Assembly: GCA_003640335.1 (NCBI GenBank)
Contig: RBKG01000210.1
Span: 1 to 10,256, forward strand
Origin: Porphyromonas sp.
GTDB lineage: Bacteria > Bacteroidota > Bacteroidia > Bacteroidales > Porphyromonadaceae
Direction: 5' to 3'
Length of the DNA stretch: 10,256 bases
The notes beneath the pieces were generated by a model. That model saw only the letters and a list, made by a program, of their open reading frames with translations. It searched no databases and was not told the DNA's origin. This document shows, in pieces, positions 27-9,908 of this stretch; position 1 is the stretch's first letter; each line of letters begins with the position of its first letter. Position numbers and translations under genes: made by a program.

Positions 27-644
27 CTATTCCTCATCGCTCCACGCTAGGGTCGTCCCGTAAATCTGCTCTAGACGACCGAAGAGCTTAGGCGCTTCAT
101 CAGCTCTCAGACTTAAGGACAAGCGACAACTCTCCAGAAACTCTTGCTCCAAAACGCGCGCATCCCAATCCTTGACCAAACGCATAACCTCGCCCATCAG
201 CTCATAGCCAAAAGCAACCGTAAACGCACGCTCCACGATGCGTTCAACCTTTTTGGCGGTAGAGAGTGCTTCTCGTGTAGCCTCTCTATAAGCCTCTATA
301 AGCCCCGATGTGCCGAGCTTAACGCCTCCAAAATAGCGAATAACAACGGCTACAACCTCCGTAACATTAGCACTCAACAGCTGACCAAGGATAGGTTTAC
401 CTGCCGTTCCCGAAGGCTCTCCATCGTCATTACTGCGTGTCGTCTCCCCATCTATGCCCAAGCGATAAGCCCAGCAAACATGGCGTGCATCGTAATACTT
501 TTGCCTCAGGCGAGCGACCTCTGCAAGCGCTTCTTCCTCTGTCCTTACAGGGATAACATAGGCAATGAACTTACTCCTTAGCTCTGAATATAAGCCCTCT
601 GCCGTCTCTTCCAGACTCCAGTATGACGCTATTACCTCTGACAT
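27..644 (-). CDS. yigZ: YigZ/IMPACT family protein (UPF0029 plus DUF1949)
   Basis: This is a small cytosolic protein of the YigZ/IMPACT family (UPF0029 N-terminal domain, DUF1949-like C-terminal domain). Bacterial members have no firmly established substrate; eukaryotic IMPACT modulates Gcn1/Gcn2 signalling. The family signature is clear: DDGEPSGTAG at about residues 73-82, followed by VVIRYFGGVKLGTSGLIEAY at about 100-119. The length of 205 aa is normal for the family. I start at the ATG at 644. An in-frame TTG at 650 abuts the stop of the ABC gene and would add two residues. It is the last gene of the minus-strand cluster in this window and almost touches the upstream ABC exporter gene, so the two are probably co-transcribed. 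The family call is firm; the cellular role is unknown. Confidence 0.93.
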   Translation of the reverse strand: MSEVIASYWSLEETAEGLYSELRSKFIAYVIPVRTEEEALAEVARLRQKYYDARHVCWAYRLGIDGETTRSNDDGEPSGTAGKPILGQLLSANVTEVVAVVIRYFGGVKLGTSGLIEAYREATREALSTAKKVERIVERAFTVAFGYELMGEVMRLVKDWDARVLEQEFLESCRLSLSLRADEAPKLFGRLEQIYGTTLAWSDEE

Positions 645-650
645 ATCCAA

Positions 651-2516
651 CTATTGCTCATCTTTGGAGCGCAACTGCATATTATATAGCTGCGTATAAT
701 ATCCGCCCTTAGCTAATAATTCGTCGTGTTTGCCCTGCTCTACAATCTGCCCTTCATGCAGAACGCATATCATATCAGCATTGATAATGGTCGATAGTCT
801 ATGCGCAATAACAATAGTCGTACGGCTATGCATCAAGTCCTCAAGAGCCTCTTGAACAAGTCGCTCACTAGCGGTATCGAGTGCGCTCGTAGCCTCATCA
901 AGTATCATAATCGGCGGGTTCTTATACACCGCACGAGCAATAGAGAGTCGCTGACGCTGTCCGCCAGAGAGCTTACTACCTCTATCTCCGATATTAGACT
1001 CGTAGCCCTCAGCCATACGCTCTACAAACTCATCAACGTGGGCGATGCGTGCCGCCTGCTCAATATCAGCCTGCTGCGCATCGTCTGTTCCGAAGGATAT
1101 ATTATTAGCAATCGTATCATTAAAGAGAATTGGGTCTTGATTAACATTCCCAATTAGGCTTCTTAGGTCTGTGAGCTTCAAGGCACGCACATCTGTACCA
1201 TCAACCAAAATCGCCCCCTCTTCCACATCGTAGAAGCGAGGTATTAGGTCCACGAGCGTCGTCTTACCGCTACCACTCTGCCCTACCAAGGCGACTGTAT
1301 GCCCCTTAGGAATAGTGAGATTGATATCACGCAGAACCCATTTATCTTCATAACGGAATGAGACATGACGCAATTCGATACATTCCTCAAATCTCAATTC
1401 TTGAGGACTCTCAGGGTCTTGAATACTATTCTCCGCCTGCATAATCTCATCAATACGCATCACCGAGCCCATACCCTTGCGTATGGCATAAAAGCCCTTA
1501 GACAAATCCTTCAGCGGATTGATTAGGCTATAGAAGATAACGAGATAGTAAATAAATGTAGAAGCATCAATGCCACCACTACCACTGACAATAAGCACAC
1601 CGCCATACCAAAGTACTATCGCAATGGTCATGGTCCCAAGGAACTCACTCATCGGATGCGCTAGTTGCTGGCGTCTAAATAGCGACATCGTACTCTGACG
1701 ATGGCGGTCATTAGCTTCTCTATAACGCTTGCTCATCCACACTTCACTCGTGAAAGCCTTGATAATGCGCAAGCCTCCGAGCGTTTCCTCTGTCATACTC
1801 AAGACGCTCCCCCATAGCGACTGCACGGTAAGGCTATCACGCTTGAGCATACGCCCCACACGCCCCATAATAAAGCCTGCTATCGGCAGGAGAATAAAGA
1901 CAAAGAGCGTGAGCTTCCAGCTAATGAGAATCATGCTACCCAAGTAGACGATTATCATGATTGGGTTCTTCAGCACTAGGTCAAGGCTACTCATAATAGA
2001 GTTCTCCACCTCGGCCACGTCGCCCGATATACGGGCTAGCACATCGCCCTTACGCTCACTAGAAAAATAGCCTAGAGGAAGTGCAAGAATCTTGTCATAC
2101 AGAGACACACGCATATCACGCACAATACCTGTGCGGATAGGTATCATCGCATAGAGAGCTAGATAAGCACTCCCCACCTTAAACCCAGTCATCACGACTA
2201 GATAAACACTCAAGAGCATGAGCGTATAGGGAATACCATGGCTCTCGGCTAATTGCCCGATGTAGTAAGAGAAATTATTATTGAGAATATCTGCTGCTCG
2301 TGACCAATCTCGTACATTCAGGAAGGAGATGTCCGCAAAATCCATAAGCCCCTTAGCACGCTCATCTATTTGGAAGAGTATGCGCAAGATGGGCATCACA
2401 AGGGCAAAAGCAACTAGATTAAGTATCGCACTAATGATATTAGCGACTACACTTAGAAGGAGATACCGCTTATAGGGCGGTACATAACGTCTTATAAACC
2501 GATATAAATCTTTCAA
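651..2516 (-). CDS. Type I ABC exporter, fused permease and ATPase (MsbA/lipid or multidrug type)
   Basis: This is an inner-membrane half-transporter with a permease domain fused to an ATPase domain, expected to work as a homodimer exporting a lipid or hydrophobic substrate. Counting from a GTG at 2546 (631 aa), hydrophobic spans fill about residues 27-340. The ATPase has Walker A GQSGSGKTT (422-430), a Q-loop Gln470, signature LSGGQ (526-530), Walker B IMILDE (546-551) and H-loop His582, so it should hydrolyse ATP. I prefer the TTG at 2516 as start (621 aa, beginning MKDLYRF). As I recall this Bacteroidota family, its proteins begin close to that point, and the GTG lies inside the 3' arm of a hairpin. 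The start remains uncertain. The substrate cannot be read from the sequence; MsbA-like lipid export is only one possibility. Confidence 0.93.
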   Translation of the reverse strand: MKDLYRFIRRYVPPYKRYLLLSVVANIISAILNLVAFALVMPILRILFQIDERAKGLMDFADISFLNVRDWSRAADILNNNFSYYIGQLAESHGIPYTLMLLSVYLVVMTGFKVGSAYLALYAMIPIRTGIVRDMRVSLYDKILALPLGYFSSERKGDVLARISGDVAEVENSIMSSLDLVLKNPIMIIVYLGSMILISWKLTLFVFILLPIAGFIMGRVGRMLKRDSLTVQSLWGSVLSMTEETLGGLRIIKAFTSEVWMSKRYREANDRHRQSTMSLFRRQQLAHPMSEFLGTMTIAIVLWYGGVLIVSGSGGIDASTFIYYLVIFYSLINPLKDLSKGFYAIRKGMGSVMRIDEIMQAENSIQDPESPQELRFEECIELRHVSFRYEDKWVLRDINLTIPKGHTVALVGQSGSGKTTLVDLIPRFYDVEEGAILVDGTDVRALKLTDLRSLIGNVNQDPILFNDTIANNISFGTDDAQQADIEQAARIAHVDEFVERMAEGYESNIGDRGSKLSGGQRQRLSIARAVYKNPPIMILDEATSALDTASERLVQEALEDLMHSRTTIVIAHRLSTIINADMICVLHEGQIVEQGKHDELLAKGGYYTQLYNMQLRSKDEQ

Positions 2517-2540
2517 AATCTTGTATTCATGAAAGGCGAG

Positions 2541-2566
2541 AGCCACTAAGCGATGGCTTAGTGGCT
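2541..2566 (-). promoter_or_regulatory. 10-bp perfect hairpin between the MFS and ABC genes
   Basis: AGCCACTAAG (2541-2550) and CTTAGTGGCT (2557-2566) form a perfect 10-bp stem with a 6-nt loop. In the minus-strand mRNA the 5' arm carries the last codons and TAA stop of the MFS gene, and the 3' arm carries the GTG at 2546 that could start the ABC gene. No T-run follows, so it is not a standard intrinsic terminator. It could protect an mRNA end, pause transcription or limit translation of the ABC gene; which is inference. Confidence 0.6.
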
Positions 2567-3823
2567 ACTTGCTGTATCATCTTTGTAACGGAAGATTAGA
2601 GTGAAGAGCACGGCGACAAGGGCTGCATAAGCCGCAAAGATATGCCATGAAGTCTGCCACCCATGTATTTTAGCAAGAGCGTCCGTTTGATTATTGACAA
2701 AGTGGTCAATGATAGCACCTGCAGCAAACGAACCAATCGTAGCGCCGATACCATTAGTCATAATCATAAACAGTCCTTGCGCACTTGAGCGGATAGAGTT
2801 GTCTGTCTCCTTATCCACGAAGAGAGAGCCCGACACATTGAAGAAGTCAAAAGCCACTCCGTAAACAATCATACTCAAGAGGAAGAGCCAAACACCCGAA
2901 CCCGGATTACCGAAACCGAGCAGAGCGAAGCGCAGTACCCACGCACACATAGCTATCAGCATCACATTGCGGATACCGAAACGCTTAAGCGCAAAAGGAA
3001 TAAGCAAGATACAGAGTGTCTCCGACACTTGAGAGACAGAGATAAGGATATTACTATGCGTTACCCCGAAGGTACCTGCATACTCGGCTACATCATTGAA
3101 AGCTCCAAGATAAGGATTTGCAAAACCGTTAGTTATCTGCAAACAAACACCTAGAAGCATTGAGAAGACGAAGAAGAGCGCCATCTTAGGTTGCTTGAAG
3201 AGCGCAAAAGCTCTAAGCCCCAAAGCATCTACAAGTCCCTTACCCTCAGACTTGCTCACAGGGCAATGTGGCAAAGTAAAGGTATAGGCAAACATGAGCA
3301 AAGCTACTAAAGCCGAAGCTAAGAACTGAAAGCTAGTAGCCTCCAAGCCAAGAACGCTCACCAAAATCATCATACAGATGAAGCCGACAGTCCCGAAAAC
3401 ACGGATTACAGGGAACTCCTTGATTAGGTCTAAGCCATTAGACTCTAGCACAGAGTAAGCCACCGAGTTGGACAAGGCTATCGTAGGCATATAGAAAGCT
3501 ACGCTTAAGCTGTATAGGATATAGAGCGGTAAGTACTGAACAGACTCAACCTGATGCGTGTACGCCCAAGCTCCACACATGAAGAGGGCTGCCAAGAGAT
3601 GACAAATACCGAGCAATCTCTGTGCTGGTACCCATCTATCCGCCACAATACCCATTAAGGCCGGCATAAACAGAGAGACAATACCCTGCATGCCATAGAA
3701 AGAACCTATCTGAACGCCACTAAAACCTATTGAGCCCAAATAGCGACCCATAGAAATGAGGTACGCGCCCCAAACGGCAAACTGCAAGAAGTTCAGTATG
3801 ATTAACCTTAGCTTGATACTCAT
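2558..3823 (-). CDS. MFS nucleoside permease-like transporter (nucleoside:H+ symporter family)
   Basis: This is a 421-aa inner-membrane carrier with about 12 hydrophobic spans across its whole length. The N-terminus, with LNFLQFAVWGAYLISMGRYL near residues 10-29 and then GIVADRW at about 58-64, matches Bacteroidota proteins of the nucleoside:H+ symporter family (NupG/XapB type). The expected role is proton-driven uptake of nucleosides, but specificity cannot be read from sequence and a different sugar-like substrate is possible. The ATG at 3823 is 30 nt downstream of the DUF4270 stop, and the TAA at 2558 precedes the ABC exporter by 11-41 nt. This fits co-transcription. No truncation or frameshift is seen. 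Confidence 0.85.
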   Translation of the reverse strand: MSIKLRLIILNFLQFAVWGAYLISMGRYLGSIGFSGVQIGSFYGMQGIVSLFMPALMGIVADRWVPAQRLLGICHLLAALFMCGAWAYTHQVESVQYLPLYILYSLSVAFYMPTIALSNSVAYSVLESNGLDLIKEFPVIRVFGTVGFICMMILVSVLGLEATSFQFLASALVALLMFAYTFTLPHCPVSKSEGKGLVDALGLRAFALFKQPKMALFFVFSMLLGVCLQITNGFANPYLGAFNDVAEYAGTFGVTHSNILISVSQVSETLCILLIPFALKRFGIRNVMLIAMCAWVLRFALLGFGNPGSGVWLFLLSMIVYGVAFDFFNVSGSLFVDKETDNSIRSSAQGLFMIMTNGIGATIGSFAAGAIIDHFVNNQTDALAKIHGWQTSWHIFAAYAALVAVLFTLIFRYKDDTASSH

Positions 3824-3853
3824 AACTTCTAGGATTATTTGATGAATATGCTA

Positions 3854-5257
3854 TTACTTAAACTTAGATACTGTGACGCCTATCTTCAGAGCGGCAGCAT
3901 CTTTCTTGAAGCGCACGAAGCTAGGGAAGAGATATTCATGAATAGCCGCTGTAGTTACAACGTTATTACCTGAGTTAGCCACCTGACGCTCTACGGGAAT
4001 AACTCTCAACTCCAAATCGGCATCAACCACCCACTTAGAGCCATTATAACTCGCATGATGCTTGAGGTGCTCTGTAAGCAATCTACTGATATTACTGAAG
4101 TTGTAATACTTTGCATTAGCTACATAAGCCGAGCTTAGGTAACTCACTGCCGCTGCCGTACGCTCAGTAAGACCTTTCTTAAAGTAAGTAGCCAATGAAT
4201 CCTTAGGCATCAGCATCATATAAGGAGGAGGGTCAAGGCTCAGATTAGCTGGATTATCTATTTCCAACTTAAACTGAGTGTCTGCTATCGAACGGTCCTT
4301 ACCTATCTGAATATCCTTAGGCTGATTTTGGAGTAAGCGTTCAAGCTCTGTATGAGCAAGGCGGATAGCTGGCAGAACGCCTGCTGGACCTTTGCTATAG
4401 AGGTAATGACTTTGAGGATCAAGGAGCGCATTTAAGTTCTGATGCTCAATACCATCTATACGGCTCGTGAGCTTCGTATTGATAAAAGCCTCACGACCAT
4501 GGCGAATGCTGTCGCCCTCCTTATAGTGGTAGTGTACGACTAAGTTTGTAGTCTTAACCTTGAGCACGGCTCCTCGCCCTGCAGTTGTGGTTATATACAA
4601 ACCGCCTAAGACTTTCTTAGAGAAGCTCTCTTGAGTATCGAAGTCGCTAGGGCTTGTGCGTGAGCGGTCATACAGACGCTGACCAAGTTCATTAGACAGC
4701 TTAAGGCTAATAGCGTAAGCAACTGCTGACTTCTGTACGACACGGCGCACCGTATCACTCGCATAGCGTACAATCTGCTCACCTAGCAAACGTGAAGGCT
4801 CGGCATAGCTCGATAGCTCTTGCTTGCTACGCTCTCCCCCAGTAAATCCGGCAGGAAGCTCATAGACAGATACCTGCATAGGCGCACGAGAAGAACCTAA
4901 GAAACCCTCCCCTCGAGGCAATAATAACTCAAGTCTTACGCTGTCTATCTTTCCTCCTTCGGGCGTGTGCGAGAATGAAAAGCCCGGAGCCGTGCGTAGT
5001 TGTGTGGCAAAGTCAGCCTTAAAGTCGCCATAGGTAGCATCTGCATAAGCTCCTAAAAGACCATCAGTGCTAAATCCATTATACACATCAGGCTGAACCT
5101 CCGTAGACGCTTCAAACTGGAGCTGATACTGCTCACTCTCCACCTTATCTCGTGGTGTCTGCACGCTCTCCCCTAAGTTCGAAAGCGTATCATCGCAGCT
5201 TGCTAGTAGAGCTAGTGAAAGCCCTAAGCCAACTACTGCACGTGCCATCATTTTCAT
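3854..5257 (-). CDS. DUF4270 family lipoprotein
   Basis: This is a 467-aa predicted lipoprotein of the Bacteroidota family DUF4270, whose function is not established. The chosen ATG at 5257 lies 7 nt after the stop of the upstream synthase-like gene. It gives a classical lipoprotein signal: MKMMARA, a hydrophobic stretch, then the lipobox LLASC with Cys21. A longer in-frame reading from 5341 would overlap the upstream gene and bury the signal peptide, so I reject it. The mature part contains several beta-rich stretches, including KIDSVRLELLLPRG and the late RVIPVERQVA segment, and no catalytic motif I can name. Its position right after the synthase-like gene is a recurrent arrangement in this phylum, which hints at a shared job, perhaps in surface polysaccharide or envelope biology. 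That link is inference. Confidence 0.88.
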   Translation of the reverse strand: MKMMARAVVGLGLSLALLASCDDTLSNLGESVQTPRDKVESEQYQLQFEASTEVQPDVYNGFSTDGLLGAYADATYGDFKADFATQLRTAPGFSFSHTPEGGKIDSVRLELLLPRGEGFLGSSRAPMQVSVYELPAGFTGGERSKQELSSYAEPSRLLGEQIVRYASDTVRRVVQKSAVAYAISLKLSNELGQRLYDRSRTSPSDFDTQESFSKKVLGGLYITTTAGRGAVLKVKTTNLVVHYHYKEGDSIRHGREAFINTKLTSRIDGIEHQNLNALLDPQSHYLYSKGPAGVLPAIRLAHTELERLLQNQPKDIQIGKDRSIADTQFKLEIDNPANLSLDPPPYMMLMPKDSLATYFKKGLTERTAAAVSYLSSAYVANAKYYNFSNISRLLTEHLKHHASYNGSKWVVDADLELRVIPVERQVANSGNNVVTTAAIHEYLFPSFVRFKKDAAALKIGVTVSKFK

Positions 5258-5264
5258 GACCTTA

Positions 5265-6068
5265 TTATAACTGTTCGTAAAAGTTGTTGTAAACCTCTGC
5301 TGGGTGGTCTGCACCGGGGTAAGCAAGGAAAGGCTTGCCACTCTTAGCGATAAACTCGGCTAGACTAGGGCTAATCACCTCACTACCCTGCACCACTGCA
5401 TCGGCATGACTAATAGCGAGCTTCATCAGGGCTTCGTAATCCGTCTTACCCTCCATCACTGCATAATCTTCTTCTGCAATGCCGTCGCTCTTTAGCTTGG
5501 CAAAGAGGTCAGTAGGTATTTCCACTGCTTGCTCTTCATTATAAACGCTCACAACGAGTTTCGCAGTATTGAGCGCTTCATCTTGGTTATAAACCTTGCG
5601 CAGATAAAGCATAGACAGAGCTGTAAATGCACCATGACAATGAATAAAGCCCGGCTCCCAACGCAATTTCTTAATTGTCTCAAACACTCCCTGAACAAAG
5701 AATAGTGAGCGTTCGTCATTATCATTCGGGCCCTTCGCAGATACTTCCAAGCCAGTTTTACGCTTGAAGAAGTCGTCATTATGAAGGAAATAAACCTGCA
5801 TACGAGCCGATGGAATAGATGCTACCTTAACAATAAGGGGATGGTCTCTGTTGTCGATAGTTAGGTTAATACCTGATAACCTCTGCACTTCATGCAGTTG
5901 ATTACGACGTTCGTTAATTGTGCCATAACGAGGCATAAACAAGCGCACTTCATTTTTATCATAGTGCTGCATATACTCTGGCAGTTCGCGTGAAACCTTA
6001 GCGATTTCCGACTGCTCTACATAAGGATAAATCTCTTGAGAGATATAAAGTATTCTCTTTAATGCCAT
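5265..6068 (-). CDS. Glycogen/starch synthase-like protein, GT5 N-terminal domain only
   Basis: This 267-aa protein resembles the N-terminal Rossmann domain of GlgA-type glycogen/starch synthases (family GT5), with no second domain. Visible features are KRILYISQEIYPYVEQSEIA at 4-23, INERRNQLHEV at 51-61, and IHCHGAFTA at 142-150, which corresponds to the H-x-H region of GlgA. Full GlgA enzymes are near 480 aa and carry a KxGGL ADP-glucose site close to the N-terminus; here that place reads VEQSEIAKVSREL, so catalysis as a normal synthase is doubtful. The same short form is common in Bacteroidota, so it is a family trait and not a truncation. I start at ATG 6068, where I expect homologs to begin; ATGs at 6095 and 6101 are possible and a GAGG lies just upstream of 6095. 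It is the first gene of the minus-strand cluster. Confidence 0.88.
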   Translation of the reverse strand: MALKRILYISQEIYPYVEQSEIAKVSRELPEYMQHYDKNEVRLFMPRYGTINERRNQLHEVQRLSGINLTIDNRDHPLIVKVASIPSARMQVYFLHNDDFFKRKTGLEVSAKGPNDNDERSLFFVQGVFETIKKLRWEPGFIHCHGAFTALSMLYLRKVYNQDEALNTAKLVVSVYNEEQAVEIPTDLFAKLKSDGIAEEDYAVMEGKTDYEALMKLAISHADAVVQGSEVISPSLAEFIAKSGKPFLAYPGADHPAEVYNNFYEQL

Positions 6069-6135
6069 TCGAGTTAATAATTCAACATGAGTCATACCCA
6101 TACCTCAGATATGACTATAACATTCCTAAAATTAA

Positions 6136-6150
6136 ATCTTTGCAAAGATA
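6136..6150 (-). promoter_or_regulatory. Bacteroidota -7 promoter box TATCTTTG within a 14-bp palindrome
   Basis: Read on the minus strand, TATCTTTG (6150 to 6143) fits the Bacteroidota -7 consensus TAnnTTTG exactly. It lies about 75 nt upstream of the chosen start of the synthase-like gene. A clear -33 TTTG is not seen; only CTTACAG lies at a roughly suitable distance. The box sits in a perfect palindrome, ATCTTTGCAAAGAT (6136-6149), so the opposite strand also carries a near-match (AATCTTTG). This is the likely promoter of the five-gene minus-strand cluster; the palindrome could be an operator or chance symmetry. Confidence 0.6.
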
Positions 6151-6212
6151 CGAATAATAGCTGACTCTGTAAGCCCCCGCCTAAGAGCAAGCCAGCGCAA
6201 GCCCATGAAAAT

Positions 6213-6405
6213 AACCAAGTAATTGATTGGTGGTGATAACGTAGATGAGCCCTGCAAGGGCGACACTATTCTGTCCAAGGCAAATGCTCGCTCTGTTAGT
6301 GCCGCTCCTACGGAGCTCAATCCGCTTTTATCTGTGTGTACCCAGGGTTTCATTTCGGGCTTTGCCCTCATTACACCCTGGGCTATGAAAAAGTATCGGG
6401 CCTAA
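6213..6405. repeat. Hairpin-rich non-coding element, probable dispersed repeat
   Basis: This gene-free stretch carries a chain of GC-rich dyads. They are GCCCT-GCA-AGGGC (6249-6261), GCTCC-TAC-GGAGC (6304-6316), an outer CCCAGGGT/ACCCTGGG pair (6341-6348 and 6375-6382) enclosing an inner GGGC-TTT-GCCC (6357-6367), and GCCT-AA-AGGC further on. The wording resembles hairpin-rich intergenic repeats I associate with Bacteroidota genomes. Short open frames across it on both strands have no ATG-to-stop protein that I recognise and are probably spurious. Copy number cannot be seen from this window. It separates the housekeeping cluster from the Thoeris operon. Confidence 0.5.
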
Positions 6406-6487
6406 AGGCACTCGTAATTAGATGAATTTTGATGCGGTTGCCCTGTAATCTCACCATCGCTCGGTATCTTTTTCGCAATAAATCAAG

Positions 6488-6495
6488 TATATTTG
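6488..6495 (+). promoter_or_regulatory. Bacteroidota -7 promoter box TATATTTG for the Thoeris operon
   Basis: TATATTTG matches the TAnnTTTG -7 consensus exactly and is followed by GC, as is common. The -33 region is poor: a T-rich CTTTTTCG lies at 6468-6475, slightly too close. Transcription would start near 6500 and run through the broken TIR gene into thsA and thsB. No other convincing promoter was seen before thsA, so this is the best candidate for the operon. Confidence 0.5.
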
Positions 6496-6541
6496 CATTA
6501 TTCATTTAAGAAATTTCTCCCGTGAGCGAAATCCTCCGACT

Positions 6542-6938
6542 TCGAGAAAAAACACAAAGGAGGAAACCATATTGAATAATATCATTTCAATTTATGTAGA
6601 TTGGGCAGATGAAACAATGCCTAAAAAACAAATAGAATAACAGCACAAAAAGTTAAATGTCAGATTTATAAAAATGATAAGCTTGTACTATCAGCAACTA
6701 ATTCTGCAATTACAACTAAATGGTGTAATTGGGAAGTAGGCATTAGAGATATCTATAAGCTATCAAGTAGAAAGATTGCATTACTCCCTTTGGCTGAAAA
6801 TAGTGGTGTATGGAATGGTAATGAATCTCTACAAATCTATCCCAGAATTGAGAAAAAATTTATATAAAAATGACGAGTCCTACATTCGTTACCCTGATGG
6901 AACATTTAAAGACCTATCTAATATGGCTAAACAAATAA
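6542..6938 (+). pseudogene. Degraded TIR-domain gene (former first gene of the Thoeris operon)
   Basis: Spliced over three frames, this region reads as the middle and end of a bacterial TIR-domain protein. Frame one gives IISIYVDWADETMPKK (6581-6628). After an A6 run the next frame continues NRITAQKVKCQIYKND, then SAITTKWCNWEVGIRD and NGNESLQIYPRIEKK, ending near 6858. At a second A6 run it moves to NLYKNDESYIRYPDGTFKD (6857-6919). A third shift near 6920 gives WLNK and a TAA at 6936-6938. The TIR strand with the YVDW motif, the ATN..(S/T)KWCNWE helix with the expected catalytic Glu, and the C-terminal GNE.LQIYP block are recognisable. I cannot find the first TIR strand (a FISHS-like motif) or a start codon, so the 5' end is lost or altered. 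Two shifts fall in A6 runs, so sequencing error or slippage is possible for those, but three shifts plus a missing start favour a pseudogene. Confidence 0.8.
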
Positions 6939-6940
6939 TT

Positions 6941-8401
6941 ATGGAATTTACAGATCAACAGAAACAATTCATTAGAGATTATATAGCTGAAATAAATAGT
7001 GGTGATGCTGCAATTTTTGCAGGAGCAGGGTTGTCTGCTTCTGTAGGTTTTGTAAACTGGAAAGAGTTACTGAGAGACTTAGCGACCGAATTAAATTTGG
7101 ATATTGAAAAGGAGCATGATTTAATTTCTGTAGCACAGTATCATTTCAATAAATTTAAACGTAGTAAGATAAACAACAAGATTATCAACGAGTTTAGCAC
7201 ACTCAAAGTAGGAAGTGAAAATCATAAGATCTTATCCCGTATTGGTATCGATACATTTTGGACGACTAATTATGATCAACTTATAGAAAGAGCATTAGAG
7301 AGCGAAGGAAAGACTGTAGAAATAAAAATTAGACAAGAAGACTTTTCACGAAATATCAAGAAAAAGGATGCCATCGTTTACAAAATGCACGGAGATAAAA
7401 ATTCACCAGATGAAGCTGTTTTGACAAAAGATGACTATGAAACATATAATGATAAGAAAGAATTGTTCTCCACTGCATTAAGAGGTGATTTATTATCAAA
7501 GACGTTTCTATTTATAGGATTTAGTTTTGATGACCCGAATTTGGAATACATTTTAGGGAGAATAAAAATTTTACTAAAAGACAACACTCCTACTCATTAT
7601 TGTTTCTTCAAGGAAGTACAAGAGTTAGACTTTCAAGATACTACAAAAACTTCCGAGCAAAATAAAGAAGATTATTTGTATGCTAAAATCAAGCAAGAAT
7701 TGAAAATTGAAGATTTAATTCGATATGGTATTCGTGCAATAATGGTAAAAGAATATTCTGACATAACTGCAATACTTTTGGAAATTGAGAAAAGACTAAA
7801 AAGGAAAAATATTTTTATTTCGGGCGCAGCTCACGACTATGATCCATATACGGAAGAAACAGCCAAAGATCTTATTCATTCTTTGAGTTACAAATTAGCA
7901 GAAAAAGAGTATAAAATCATTTCAGGCTTTGGTTTAGGTATCGGAAGTATCGTTATTAATGGAGCTTTAGATTTTAAGCTAAACTCAAATTATAGAAGTT
8001 TGGATGACTTACTGGTTTTGCGCCCTTTCCCGCAGATACAATCGGGAGGGCAAAGCATTTCTAAAGTATGGACGGATTACAGGAACGAAATGATCTCAAA
8101 AGCTGGTATCGCAATCTTTGTTTTTGGGAATAAAAAGGTTAGAGAAAATATTGTTAACTCAAATGGTATGGAGGAAGAATTTGAAATTTGTTTAAAGCAC
8201 AATGTTATTCCGATTCCAATAGGAGCAACTGGCTATGTTTCTAAATCTTTATGGGATAAAGTTATAACCAAATTAGAAAGCTATTATCCCAATAATGACA
8301 GTTTATATAATACAATTACAGAGCTTGGGAAAGACAATTCCACAAAAGATAATTTGATAAATAATATATTAACGGCAATTGACATCTTACAAAATATCTA
8401 A
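6941..8401 (+). CDS. thsA: Thoeris ThsA: SIR2-type NADase with C-terminal SLOG sensor domain
   Basis: This is the effector of a type I Thoeris anti-phage system, 486 aa. Residues about 5-280 form a SIR2-like NADase: AIFAGAGLSASVGFVNW (24-40), WTTNYDQLIERAL (107-119) with Asn110, and VYKMHGD (146-152) with His150. These two correspond to the catalytic Asn and His of the Bacillus cereus protein. KTFLFIGFSFDDPNLEYIL follows at 187-205. Residues about 288-480 form the SLOG domain: IFISGAA (291-297), SGFGLGIGSIVINGAL (328-343), LRPFP (360-364) and IPIGATGY (425-432). In characterised systems the SLOG domain binds a cyclic ADP-ribose isomer made by ThsB, which activates NAD+ hydrolysis and stops phage growth. 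I start at ATG 6941, where the N-terminus matches the family. A TTG at 6776 would only add translated TIR pseudogene. The gene is visibly AT-rich (17 of 60 G+C at 7321-7380, against 28 of 60 at 3241-3300 in the MFS gene), which suggests transfer. All key motifs look intact. Confidence 0.95.
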   Translation: MEFTDQQKQFIRDYIAEINSGDAAIFAGAGLSASVGFVNWKELLRDLATELNLDIEKEHDLISVAQYHFNKFKRSKINNKIINEFSTLKVGSENHKILSRIGIDTFWTTNYDQLIERALESEGKTVEIKIRQEDFSRNIKKKDAIVYKMHGDKNSPDEAVLTKDDYETYNDKKELFSTALRGDLLSKTFLFIGFSFDDPNLEYILGRIKILLKDNTPTHYCFFKEVQELDFQDTTKTSEQNKEDYLYAKIKQELKIEDLIRYGIRAIMVKEYSDITAILLEIEKRLKRKNIFISGAAHDYDPYTEETAKDLIHSLSYKLAEKEYKIISGFGLGIGSIVINGALDFKLNSNYRSLDDLLVLRPFPQIQSGGQSISKVWTDYRNEMISKAGIAIFVFGNKKVRENIVNSNGMEEEFEICLKHNVIPIPIGATGYVSKSLWDKVITKLESYYPNNDSLYNTITELGKDNSTKDNLINNILTAIDILQNI

Positions 8402-8403
8402 TT

Positions 8404-8883
8404 ATGGCAAAAAGACAAGTATTTTACAGTTTTCACTATGAAAATGATGTTTTTAGAGTTCAACAAATTCGAAACATTGGCGCATTGGAAGATAATGAAC
8501 CCGTTTCTCCCAATGAATGGGAAAGCATTAAAAGACGCGGAGAAGCTTCAATAAAAGAATGGATTGACGATAACCTTAGATACAAAAGTTGTGTTATCGT
8601 ATTGATAGGAGAAGAAACGGCTAATAGAAAATGGGTACAATATGAGATCAAAAAAGCTTTGAAACTTGGTAAGGGATTAATCGGGGTTTATATACATAAC
8701 CTAAAAGACCCAAGAACGGGAAAATCTTCAAAAGGAAAGAACCCTTTTGATCAATTTATATCCGATGATGGTACCAAACTTTCAAGTATTGTAAAATGCT
8801 ATGACCCCAATCCTAATGATGCCTATAATGAAATTAGAGACAATCTTGAAAATTGGATTGATGAAGCTATAGAATCACGTTAA
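8404..8883 (+). CDS. thsB: Thoeris ThsB: TIR-like signal-producing protein
   Basis: This 159-aa protein has the ThsB-type TIR-like domain (formerly DUF1863, MTH538 fold). Visible markers are VFYSFHYENDVFRVQQIRN (6-24), a helix region around SIKRRGEASIKEWID (41-55), CVIVLIGEETANRKWVQYEI (63-82) with Glu81 in the place expected for the TIR catalytic Glu, and LIGVYIHNLKDP (92-103). In known systems ThsB detects infection, cleaves NAD+ and makes a cyclic ADP-ribose isomer that activates ThsA. The ATG lies 2 nt after the thsA stop in a TAATTATGG junction, so translation is probably coupled. Length and motifs look complete. The gene is AT-rich like thsA. Which phage signal it senses cannot be told from sequence. 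Confidence 0.95.
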   Translation: MAKRQVFYSFHYENDVFRVQQIRNIGALEDNEPVSPNEWESIKRRGEASIKEWIDDNLRYKSCVIVLIGEETANRKWVQYEIKKALKLGKGLIGVYIHNLKDPRTGKSSKGKNPFDQFISDDGTKLSSIVKCYDPNPNDAYNEIRDNLENWIDEAIESR

Positions 8884-9010
8884 TTCTCCTACATTAAACT
8901 AATGAGAGAGCTGTGAGTTCGAGGGAAAAGACATTAAAAACAAAAGTGACCATAAGGATCTGTACCACTGACAAGCACTTTTTCAATACTTAAAATGAAA
9001 CTATAAAGAG

Positions 9011-9050
9011 AAAGAGCTTGCTCCATTAATGATGGAACAAGCTCTTTTTT
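9011..9050. terminator. Intrinsic terminator after thsB, possibly bidirectional
   Basis: AAAGAGCTTG (9011-9020) pairs perfectly with CAAGCTCTTT (9038-9047). After one C-A mismatch, TCCAT pairs with ATGGA around a 5-nt loop. The right arm runs into six T residues (9045-9050), making a strong rho-independent terminator for the Thoeris operon. On the opposite strand the hairpin is followed by TTTCTCTTT, so it may also stop leftward transcription from the integrase remnant. Confidence 0.88.
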
Positions 9051-9075
9051 ATATTCAAGTTATTTGCCCTCTTTG

Positions 9076-9620
9076 TTACTTAAACCTCTCCATATCTCTT
9101 GCAATCTTTTGGTCAATGATTTGGGCATAGATCTGCGTGGTGGCGGCAACGGAGGAATGTCCCACCATCTTGGCAATATTCTCTATCGGAATACTTGCCT
9201 CCAAAGTCAGCGTGCTGAAACTGTGGCGAGCGGACATGGTAGCCCAGTGGAGTACGAACACCACACGCCAAGCCTACTGCTTTGAGGAGGGCAATCAGTT
9301 TATTGTGTCGGGGAATATTTTCGTTTCGGGGAGTGCCTTGCAATCTCTCTCTACTTCCGTTTTTCGTCTTTCCTTACGGATATATCGTTTCCTCCTCGCT
9401 GTTCGTTTCGATTTGCAAAGCTCGCAGAGCCTGCAAGTCGGCAAATAGCAAACCCGTGAAGGTGGAGAAAAGAAACATTCTTTGGCTTAGTTTTGCCCCC
9501 CTCATCCTGCAATGGAAATGCCAAGAGCTTTGCCTCATCGCCTTTGCTTAGCGAACGAGGGTTACGCTCCATGGCTTCATACTTCCCCTCTTCAAATGAA
9601 TTAAAGCATATTGTTCCCCT
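9076..9620 (-). pseudogene. Tyrosine recombinase (integrase), broken by four frame changes
   Basis: Read leftward, pieces of one Bacteroidota-type phage/ICE integrase follow each other in order but in changing frames. They are KYEAMERNPRSLSKGDEAK and LLAFPLQDE (about 9595-9500), FLFSTFTGLLFADLQALRAL (about 9475-9416), YIRKERRKTEVERD (9384-9343), NKLIALLKAVGLACGVRTPL (about 9303-9244) and SARHSFSTLTLEASIPIENI, which runs on to the true C-terminus with a TAA at 9076-9078. The last piece holds the ARH box, a GHSS motif and the likely nucleophile Tyr in TQIYAQI. With four frame changes and no clear N-terminal half, the protein cannot be made. It converges on the Thoeris operon, with the terminator between them, and is probably a relic of the element that carried the defence genes. 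Confidence 0.85.
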
Positions 9621-9908
9621 GACCGACAGCTCGATACATCAATATTCAACCAACAGAGATACTTACTTATTGTTGCAAAGACATAGCCCTCTTTCTTCAA
9701 ATGGAAACGATAATCATCAGATATCTATGATAAGTTAGAGAAATATACTCTTCGTCACGATTTCGTACAAAAGCATTGAGCTTCATCGGAACTTAGATTG
9801 TTGCTATACGCACCCTCACTCTTGCTTTCTCTTTGGGTATTCCTCTGTACTAAGGACAAGAAGTATCGTTGGATTCCGCCTGATGCCTTGTGAGTAGTTC
9901 TTCAGAAG
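9621..9908. other. Gene-free stretch, nothing recognised
   Basis: I see no convincing gene, RNA or promoter here. On the minus strand a short run near 9730-9650 reads FHLKKEGYVFATISKYLCWL, which faintly resembles the core-binding part of tyrosine recombinases and could be the decayed N-terminal region of the neighbouring integrase. That reading is weak. The rest looks like eroded sequence between two mobile-element remnants. Confidence 0.4.

Follow-up and report, generated by a model that had tools for sequence, protein, structure and literature searches.

A question raised by the 10,256-nt Porphyromonas sp. stretch analysed here (the window) is whether the region in front of its thsA gene once encoded a second phage sensor and, if so, what kind of defence the loss of this sensor has left behind. 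In Thoeris systems, infection causes ThsB to make a cyclic ADP-ribose signal, and the signal-bound ThsA destroys NAD+. The window contains both genes on the forward strand. thsA (6941..8401) encodes an intact type I ThsA of 486 aa with SIR2 and STALD (SLOG) domains (Pfam STALD 1e-74 and SIR2_2 9e-31; PADLOC ThsA 1.3e-199), and next to it an intact TIR gene of the ThsB family, thsB (8404..8883), encodes an EcThsB-like protein of 159 aa (Pfam ThsB_TIR 1.4e-28; PADLOC PDLC00433 9.7e-75; PDB 8wcf 1.2e-57), as is characteristic of type I Thoeris. NCBIfam models, searched with ThsA, ThsB and one piece of the upstream region, gave only Dsr2 for ThsA, far under the cut-off.

The region adjoining thsA, at about 6578-6938, is almost certainly the pseudogene of a ThsB-type TIR, with tir-thsA-thsB as the ancestral gene order. 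The longest piece of this relic (6628-6861) matched the PADLOC ThsB models PDLC00436 (E 1.5e-24, model positions 77-152 of 183) and PDLC00423 (E 6.2e-24), and our own profile of the upstream type, made from 115 of 120 listed homologues (426 were found), detected the same piece at E 3.2e-38. A Pfam search of three short relic pieces returned no TIR match. The relic consists of four segments, all on the forward strand. The first (6578..6637) holds the junction of a ~184-bp deletion followed by the ISIYVDWADETMP block, with YVDWADETMP read in the frame of 6563-6637 (own profile E 8.8e-6 for 6482-6637). A first frame break near 6622 leads to the second segment (6625..6864), which starts with TAQK, carries the blocks KWCNWEVG and LQIYP (both read in frame with 6628-6861), and is the part recognized by both the PADLOC ThsB models and our profile. 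After a second break near 6856, the YPDGTF block of the third segment (6860..6919) is read in the frame of 6563 again, a frame now shared with thsA; a third break near 6918 then precedes the last codons (6920..6938), where WLNK and the stop codon (6924-6938, in a third frame) end 2 nt before the thsA ATG at 6941.

The initial annotation had stitched three frames at 6542..6940 into one TIR protein and had pointed to two A6 runs. All four sequence blocks and the end of the gene 2 nt before the thsA ATG (stop at 6938) are indeed there, but the TIR is incomplete, with ~62 N-terminal residues deleted. Instead of three frames there are four segments with three frame breaks and a deletion, the third break and the ~184-bp deletion coming in addition to the A-runs; moreover, the relic of the protein starts only near 6578, and 6542-6577 belongs to a leader and ribosome-binding region.

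The lesions can be read against an intact counterpart. A ThsA scan of species genomes yielded 23 loci, of which the closest is that of Porphyromonas levii DSM 23370 (L001; ThsA 97% identical), where an intact TIR gene of 180 aa (950-1492) has its stop codon 2 nt before the thsA ATG. Searching related genomes for an intact TIR gene at this junction, as the initial annotation had suggested, uncovered six loci in which such a gene lies at the same distance before thsA (L001, L002, L003, L006, L008, and L009), in agreement with the ancestral order that it had proposed. Relative to L001, the relic has a changed or lost start codon, three frame breaks, and the ~184-bp deletion, which is flanked by a 4-bp repeat and removes the N-terminal third of the protein; in a model of the intact L001 protein (mean pLDDT 83.8), the deleted part comprises strand A and helix A. 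Although the relic matches ThsB TIR profiles and is placed directly before thsA as in relatives, it has no open reading frame with a start codon and a complete TIR fold, and it is a pseudogene of the ThsB family rather than a working member.

A-runs are found at or next to two of the breaks, as would be expected if a whole gene had been missequenced or misassembled at homopolymers; however, the ~184-bp deletion, the lost start codon, and the substitutions at invariant columns are not errors of this kind, and the explanation can be rejected with near certainty. The same A-runs might be thought to serve programmed frameshifting or phase variation that keeps the TIR switchable, but switching at a run cannot restore a deleted N-terminal third or a lost start codon, and the TIR genes of intact relatives are free of such breaks, so that the chance of a switchable gene is negligible.

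The substitutions that distinguish the relic from L001 are in line with a pseudogene. They look unconstrained when compared with those of intact family members, within the low power of 9 residue differences over 88 sites (two segments), and appear to be random with respect to conservation, unlike those of ThsA and ThsB. The mean column entropy was 0.72 at the changed sites versus 0.61 at all sites (P 0.30, a test of low power at only 88 sites), and 7 of the 9 changes were unseen among 117 homologues. In the intact family members P0004 and P0006, only 2 of 22 and 1 of 24 changes, respectively, were unseen, and it was the variable columns that had changed (P<=0.0004). The changes of ThsA (16, of which 2 unseen in 120 homologues; P 0.0004 or less) and ThsB (21, of which 2 unseen in 116; P 0.0004) did likewise, as did those of two further controls, ThsB P0126 (P 0.0016) and ThsA P0242 (P<0.0002). 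For this test, the ThsB rows omitted P0134, P0122, and P0123, and segment 3 of the relic was excluded on account of poor alignment, the 118 rows of the relic family that include this segment leaving 117 homologues. At columns conserved in at least 95% of the sequences, the relic showed departures at 0 of 8 in segment 1, 5 of 39 in segment 2, and 1 of 3 in segment 3, compared with 0 of 48 for L001; this count excluded P0121, which is the window's own entry, and P0134, which is identical to that of L001, and the query proteins were not among the comparison set. The NG86 comparison with L001 gave 4.7 synonymous and 17.3 nonsynonymous differences for the relic (ratio 0.97).

The lost TIR was not a second copy of the remaining one. 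Neither the profile of the upstream TIR type nor that of the downstream ThsB type matched the other at E<=10, HHalign aligned only 17 columns of them with a probability of 0.5%, and the best PADLOC ThsB models differ between the two. The closest solved structure of the intact upstream-type counterpart, both by sequence (E 6.7e-15) and by fold (E 4.1e-9, TM 0.63/0.68), is 8btn (titled BcThsB), while that of the remaining ThsB by sequence is 8wcf (titled EcThsB; E 1.2e-57). BcThsB is a protein of Bacillus cereus. The intact L001 protein and the downstream ThsB are nevertheless both TIR proteins by Pfam, and because both exceed the ThsB_TIR cut-off, they are distant kin and not unrelated. These comparisons confirm what the initial annotation had read from the letters, namely that the lost TIR differs in type from the neighbouring ThsB: the ancestor had two unlike TIRs, of which the one lost is closest to BcThsB among solved structures and the one kept to EcThsB. 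A third ThsB type (PADLOC PDLC00428, 235-237 aa) was observed downstream of thsA in L002 (3746-4450) and L005 (7467-8177), which means that sensors there may turn over at more than one place.

Upstream of the relic, the old tir leader (6460..6577, forward strand), with a promoter-like region and a ribosome-binding stretch, shows 88% identity to the leader of the intact L001 gene. The Bacteroides -7 box has the form TAnnTTTG, and this pattern is present at 6488 (TATATTTG); a combined -33/-7 promoter pattern had 0 matches. When 6110-6600 was compared with 38 Porphyromonadaceae genomes, 14 gave a match at E<=0.001, which in 9 of these 14 covered at least 95 bp of the ~120-bp leader (6460-6587). 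Copies of this leader (L064-L069) precede unrelated genes, including a gene for an HU-type DNA-binding protein in L065 (Pfam HU-HIG 6.6e-14), and in L067 the end of an integrase lies nearby. The leader resembles a module of promoter and ribosome-binding site that travels with mobile genes.

The junction leaves room for a residual role of the relic, through an N-terminally extended ThsA or a need for reinitiation from the relic. An open frame (6740-8401) places relic segment 3 in frame with thsA and could add residues to ThsA, and the spacing of 2 nt from the stop codon of tir to the start of thsA in intact relatives suggests coupled translation. However, of the two in-frame ATGs of thsA (6923 and 6941), that at 6941 agrees with the conserved start of the relatives, and the one at 6923 is available too; we thus consider such a role improbable.

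The tir-thsA-thsB genes belong to a cassette shared with P. levii. From the leader to an integrase (6447-9908), the window aligns with P. levii in three pieces of 88-96% identity, whereas the chromosomal flank 27-6101 reaches only 64-74% in four pieces. Against 12 genomes of the P. levii genus group, this flank showed 63-85% identity in pieces (the highest values belonging to the shortest pieces), and its best match by score among those listed was a genome of the same family outside the genus group (71-72%). Because the flank is far less P. levii-like than the cassette, the host of the window is another species of the family, probably of another genus, and the cassette has been exchanged. Judged by these identities, the cassette is one that has moved horizontally. 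At its far end, on the reverse strand, lies a broken integrase (9082..9908), which tblastn with the 396-aa L001 open reading frame matched in several frames with stops; in L001 this frame is open (Pfam Phage_integrase 8.4e-19). Given this integrase remnant, the cassette is probably no longer self-mobile. Elsewhere, ThsA matched at E<=1e-60 in 2 of 395 phylum-level genomes, ThsA relatives on plasmids were below 60% protein identity (DNA matches 60-80%), and a search of viral contigs gave one locus for ThsA, at 38%, and no match for the TIR.

Is the loss of the upstream TIR peculiar to the window? Among 28 distinct loci, the window included, an upstream-type TIR is intact before thsA in 13 (in one of them, L020, with another TIR gene between it and thsA), broken in 2 (the window and L010), reduced to a C-terminal stub in 2 (L007 and L011), and absent from the covered sequence in 10; the remaining locus, L017, offers only 133 nt upstream and was scored as no data. 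L032 (the same place as L001) as well as L024-L031 and L035-L061 (no ThsA match at 1e-40) had been dropped beforehand. The matched thsA stretch is free of stops in all 28 loci. In the 12-locus ThsA clade of the window (support 100/100), 6 loci have an intact upstream TIR, 2 a broken one, 2 a C-terminal stub, and 2 none; the idea that homologues might simply lack a TIR gene upstream of this thsA lineage is thus not borne out, 4 loci (the window included) having kept remains. thsA is unbroken in 12/12 of these loci and thsB of the window's type in 10/12, being broken in L010 and missing beside thsA in L005. As remains occur in the same place in the window, in L010, and in L007/L011, which are separate on the ThsA tree, at least three losses must have taken place in this slot. 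On the tree of 28 loci, the intact state required 8 changes versus a shuffled mean of 9.5 (119 of 500 shuffles were as low) and thus seems hardly clustered, as expected of frequent loss or exchange. Outside the clade, L021 and L014 possess an upstream TIR that is absent from their close relative L022, whose thsA and thsB are still constrained (0.085 and 0.017, respectively, versus L021). An unbroken thsA and an intact window-type thsB without a whole upstream TIR are found in L004, L007, and L011, but a further D-like TIR nearby means that these are not clean one-sensor loci; the more distant L013, L022, and L062 have a single TIR by the two profiles used. Among the 120 listed relatives of the relic, P0011, P0075, and P0084 are N-terminally short, a lead to further damage, and two others are C-terminally short.

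Two further observations concern damaged sensor genes. In L010, which is Chryseobacterium rhizosphaerae, the TIR genes on both sides of an unbroken thsA are broken (5574-5885 and 7443-7740), and in L034 (2909-3443) thsB is split into two overlapping frames beside thsA.

As to whether the remaining pair of genes still works, the main doubt concerns thsB. thsA is constrained, with 28 synonymous and 16 nonsynonymous differences from L001 (NG86 ratio 0.13) and departures at 0 of 238 columns that are at least 95% conserved. For thsB, the same comparison gave 6 synonymous and 22 nonsynonymous differences (ratio 0.90, near the neutral expectation), about ten times the 0-0.093 of six other pairs (one of them saturated); its 22:6 is close to the neutral site ratio of 383:94 and differs from thsA (Fisher p=0.0006). 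At columns at least 95% conserved, ThsB departs at 9 of 129 among 42 near homologues (L001 at 0 of 129, its relative P0122 at 12) and at 2 of 76 among 114 wider homologues. Of the 21 ThsB changes, 8 were unseen when the near set (45 homologues) was used, and the changes lay at variable columns here (P<0.0002) as in the set of 116. Given the nonsynonymous excess and the departures at conserved columns, ThsB may be under relaxed constraint too, although adaptation may also account for the excess. Some of the ThsB changes are common to the metagenome proteins P0122, P0123, and P0126. Recombination as the cause of the thsB divergence was considered and found unlikely, the synonymous distance (0.067) being below that of thsA (0.104).

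If the two TIRs had been an obligatory pair, the loss of one would have silenced the whole system, and thsB would now be drifting in a dead or dying locus. The near-neutral thsB ratio and the departures at conserved columns are consistent with such an outcome, as are L010, where both TIRs are broken and thsA is without a stop, the broken integrase of the cassette, and the single complex of S. aureus ThsB1 and ThsB2 described in PMC12578639. On the other hand, thsB is an unbroken 159-codon frame whose changes lie at variable columns, 7 of the 21 being found in P0126 versus L001 as well; ThsA remains constrained; and a window-type thsB with ThsA and without an upstream-type TIR exists elsewhere. 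We therefore regard a dead system as possible but rather unlikely. The reading that we prefer, with moderate confidence, is a working one-sensor Thoeris that has lost the trigger of its upstream TIR; it is the best guess since ThsA is constrained and ThsB unbroken. The sequence covered for this organism was the window itself, and TIR genes elsewhere in its genome might act in trans.

In this preferred course of events, a second ThsB-type sensor belonged to a type I Thoeris cassette, tir-thsA-thsB with leader and integrase, that is common to P. levii and was horizontally transferred. In the lineage of the window, the start codon of the upstream tir disappeared, a deletion of ~184 bp between 4-bp microhomologies took away the N-terminal third, and the gene acquired three frame breaks and unconstrained substitutions. 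The relic would now be, at most, leader sequence for thsA that is translated in part or not at all, while ThsB, the sensor that is left, probably continues to produce the cyclic ADP-ribose that turns on the ThsA NADase, whatever phage trigger the upstream TIR recognised having been lost. The data show the relic, the ancestral gene order, the two types of TIR, an intact ThsA under constraint, and an unbroken ThsB; that ThsB alone suffices, that sensing has narrowed, and the order in which the lesions arose are what we infer. A more far-reaching interpretation is that sensors in the position preceding thsA are dispensable, in view of their repeated loss there (by deletion, frame decay, or reduction to stubs) and the persistence of ThsA and, usually, the downstream ThsB, and that a burst of amino-acid changes in ThsB after the loss (ratio 0.90 here, 0-0.093 in the six other pairs) retunes phage recognition; we find this doubtful.

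Whether loss of one TIR narrows or kills the defence depends on whether paired TIRs act independently or jointly, and the few systems studied disagree. The discussion in PMC11204291 holds that multiple Bacillus ThsBs are most likely independent. According to PMC12578639, ThsB1, ThsB2, and a phage capsid protein form one complex in S. aureus, where defence needs the putative catalytic residues of ThsB2 only, and ThsB1 alone is enough against one phage in S. equinus. The initial annotation had proposed that such TIRs differ in phage range and that the loss may have narrowed the spectrum; for the window, different ranges are conceivable and a narrowed spectrum is plausible. As a pseudogene in an already known type of defence system, the phenomenon itself is nothing unusual, and the recurrent loss in the slot together with the fast thsB makes it mildly interesting. 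Two further papers touch on it: PMC12322248 excludes pseudogene-containing systems from its counts, and the P. gingivalis defences named in PMC10367356 include Thoeris. In the open-licence literature we found no description of a decayed thsB beside a whole one, a weak negative. As a clear case of an immune locus that has lost one of its two sensors, with a near-identical intact relative for natural comparison, the window allows independent and joint action of Thoeris TIRs to be tested in Bacteroidota.

Among known systems, the P. levii L001 cassette is like the window in its leader, gene order, junction, ThsA (97% identical), ThsB (87% identical), and homologous downstream integrase, but its upstream TIR and integrase are unbroken and those of the window are broken. 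EcThsB (PDB 8wcf) and the ThsA of PDB 8wc0 are the closest solved relatives by sequence of the window's ThsB (1.2e-57) and ThsA (4.5e-130), respectively. BcThsB (PDB 8btn) resembles the lost TIR type, which is a pseudogene in the window, where the unbroken TIR is of another type. The S. aureus and S. equinus Thoeris systems, as presented in PMC12578639, share with the ancestral locus a ThsA and two TIR proteins; unlike the window, their loci are intact, the S. aureus TIRs act jointly, and ThsB1 in that system, with residue numbers above 300, is a longer protein than the TIRs here.
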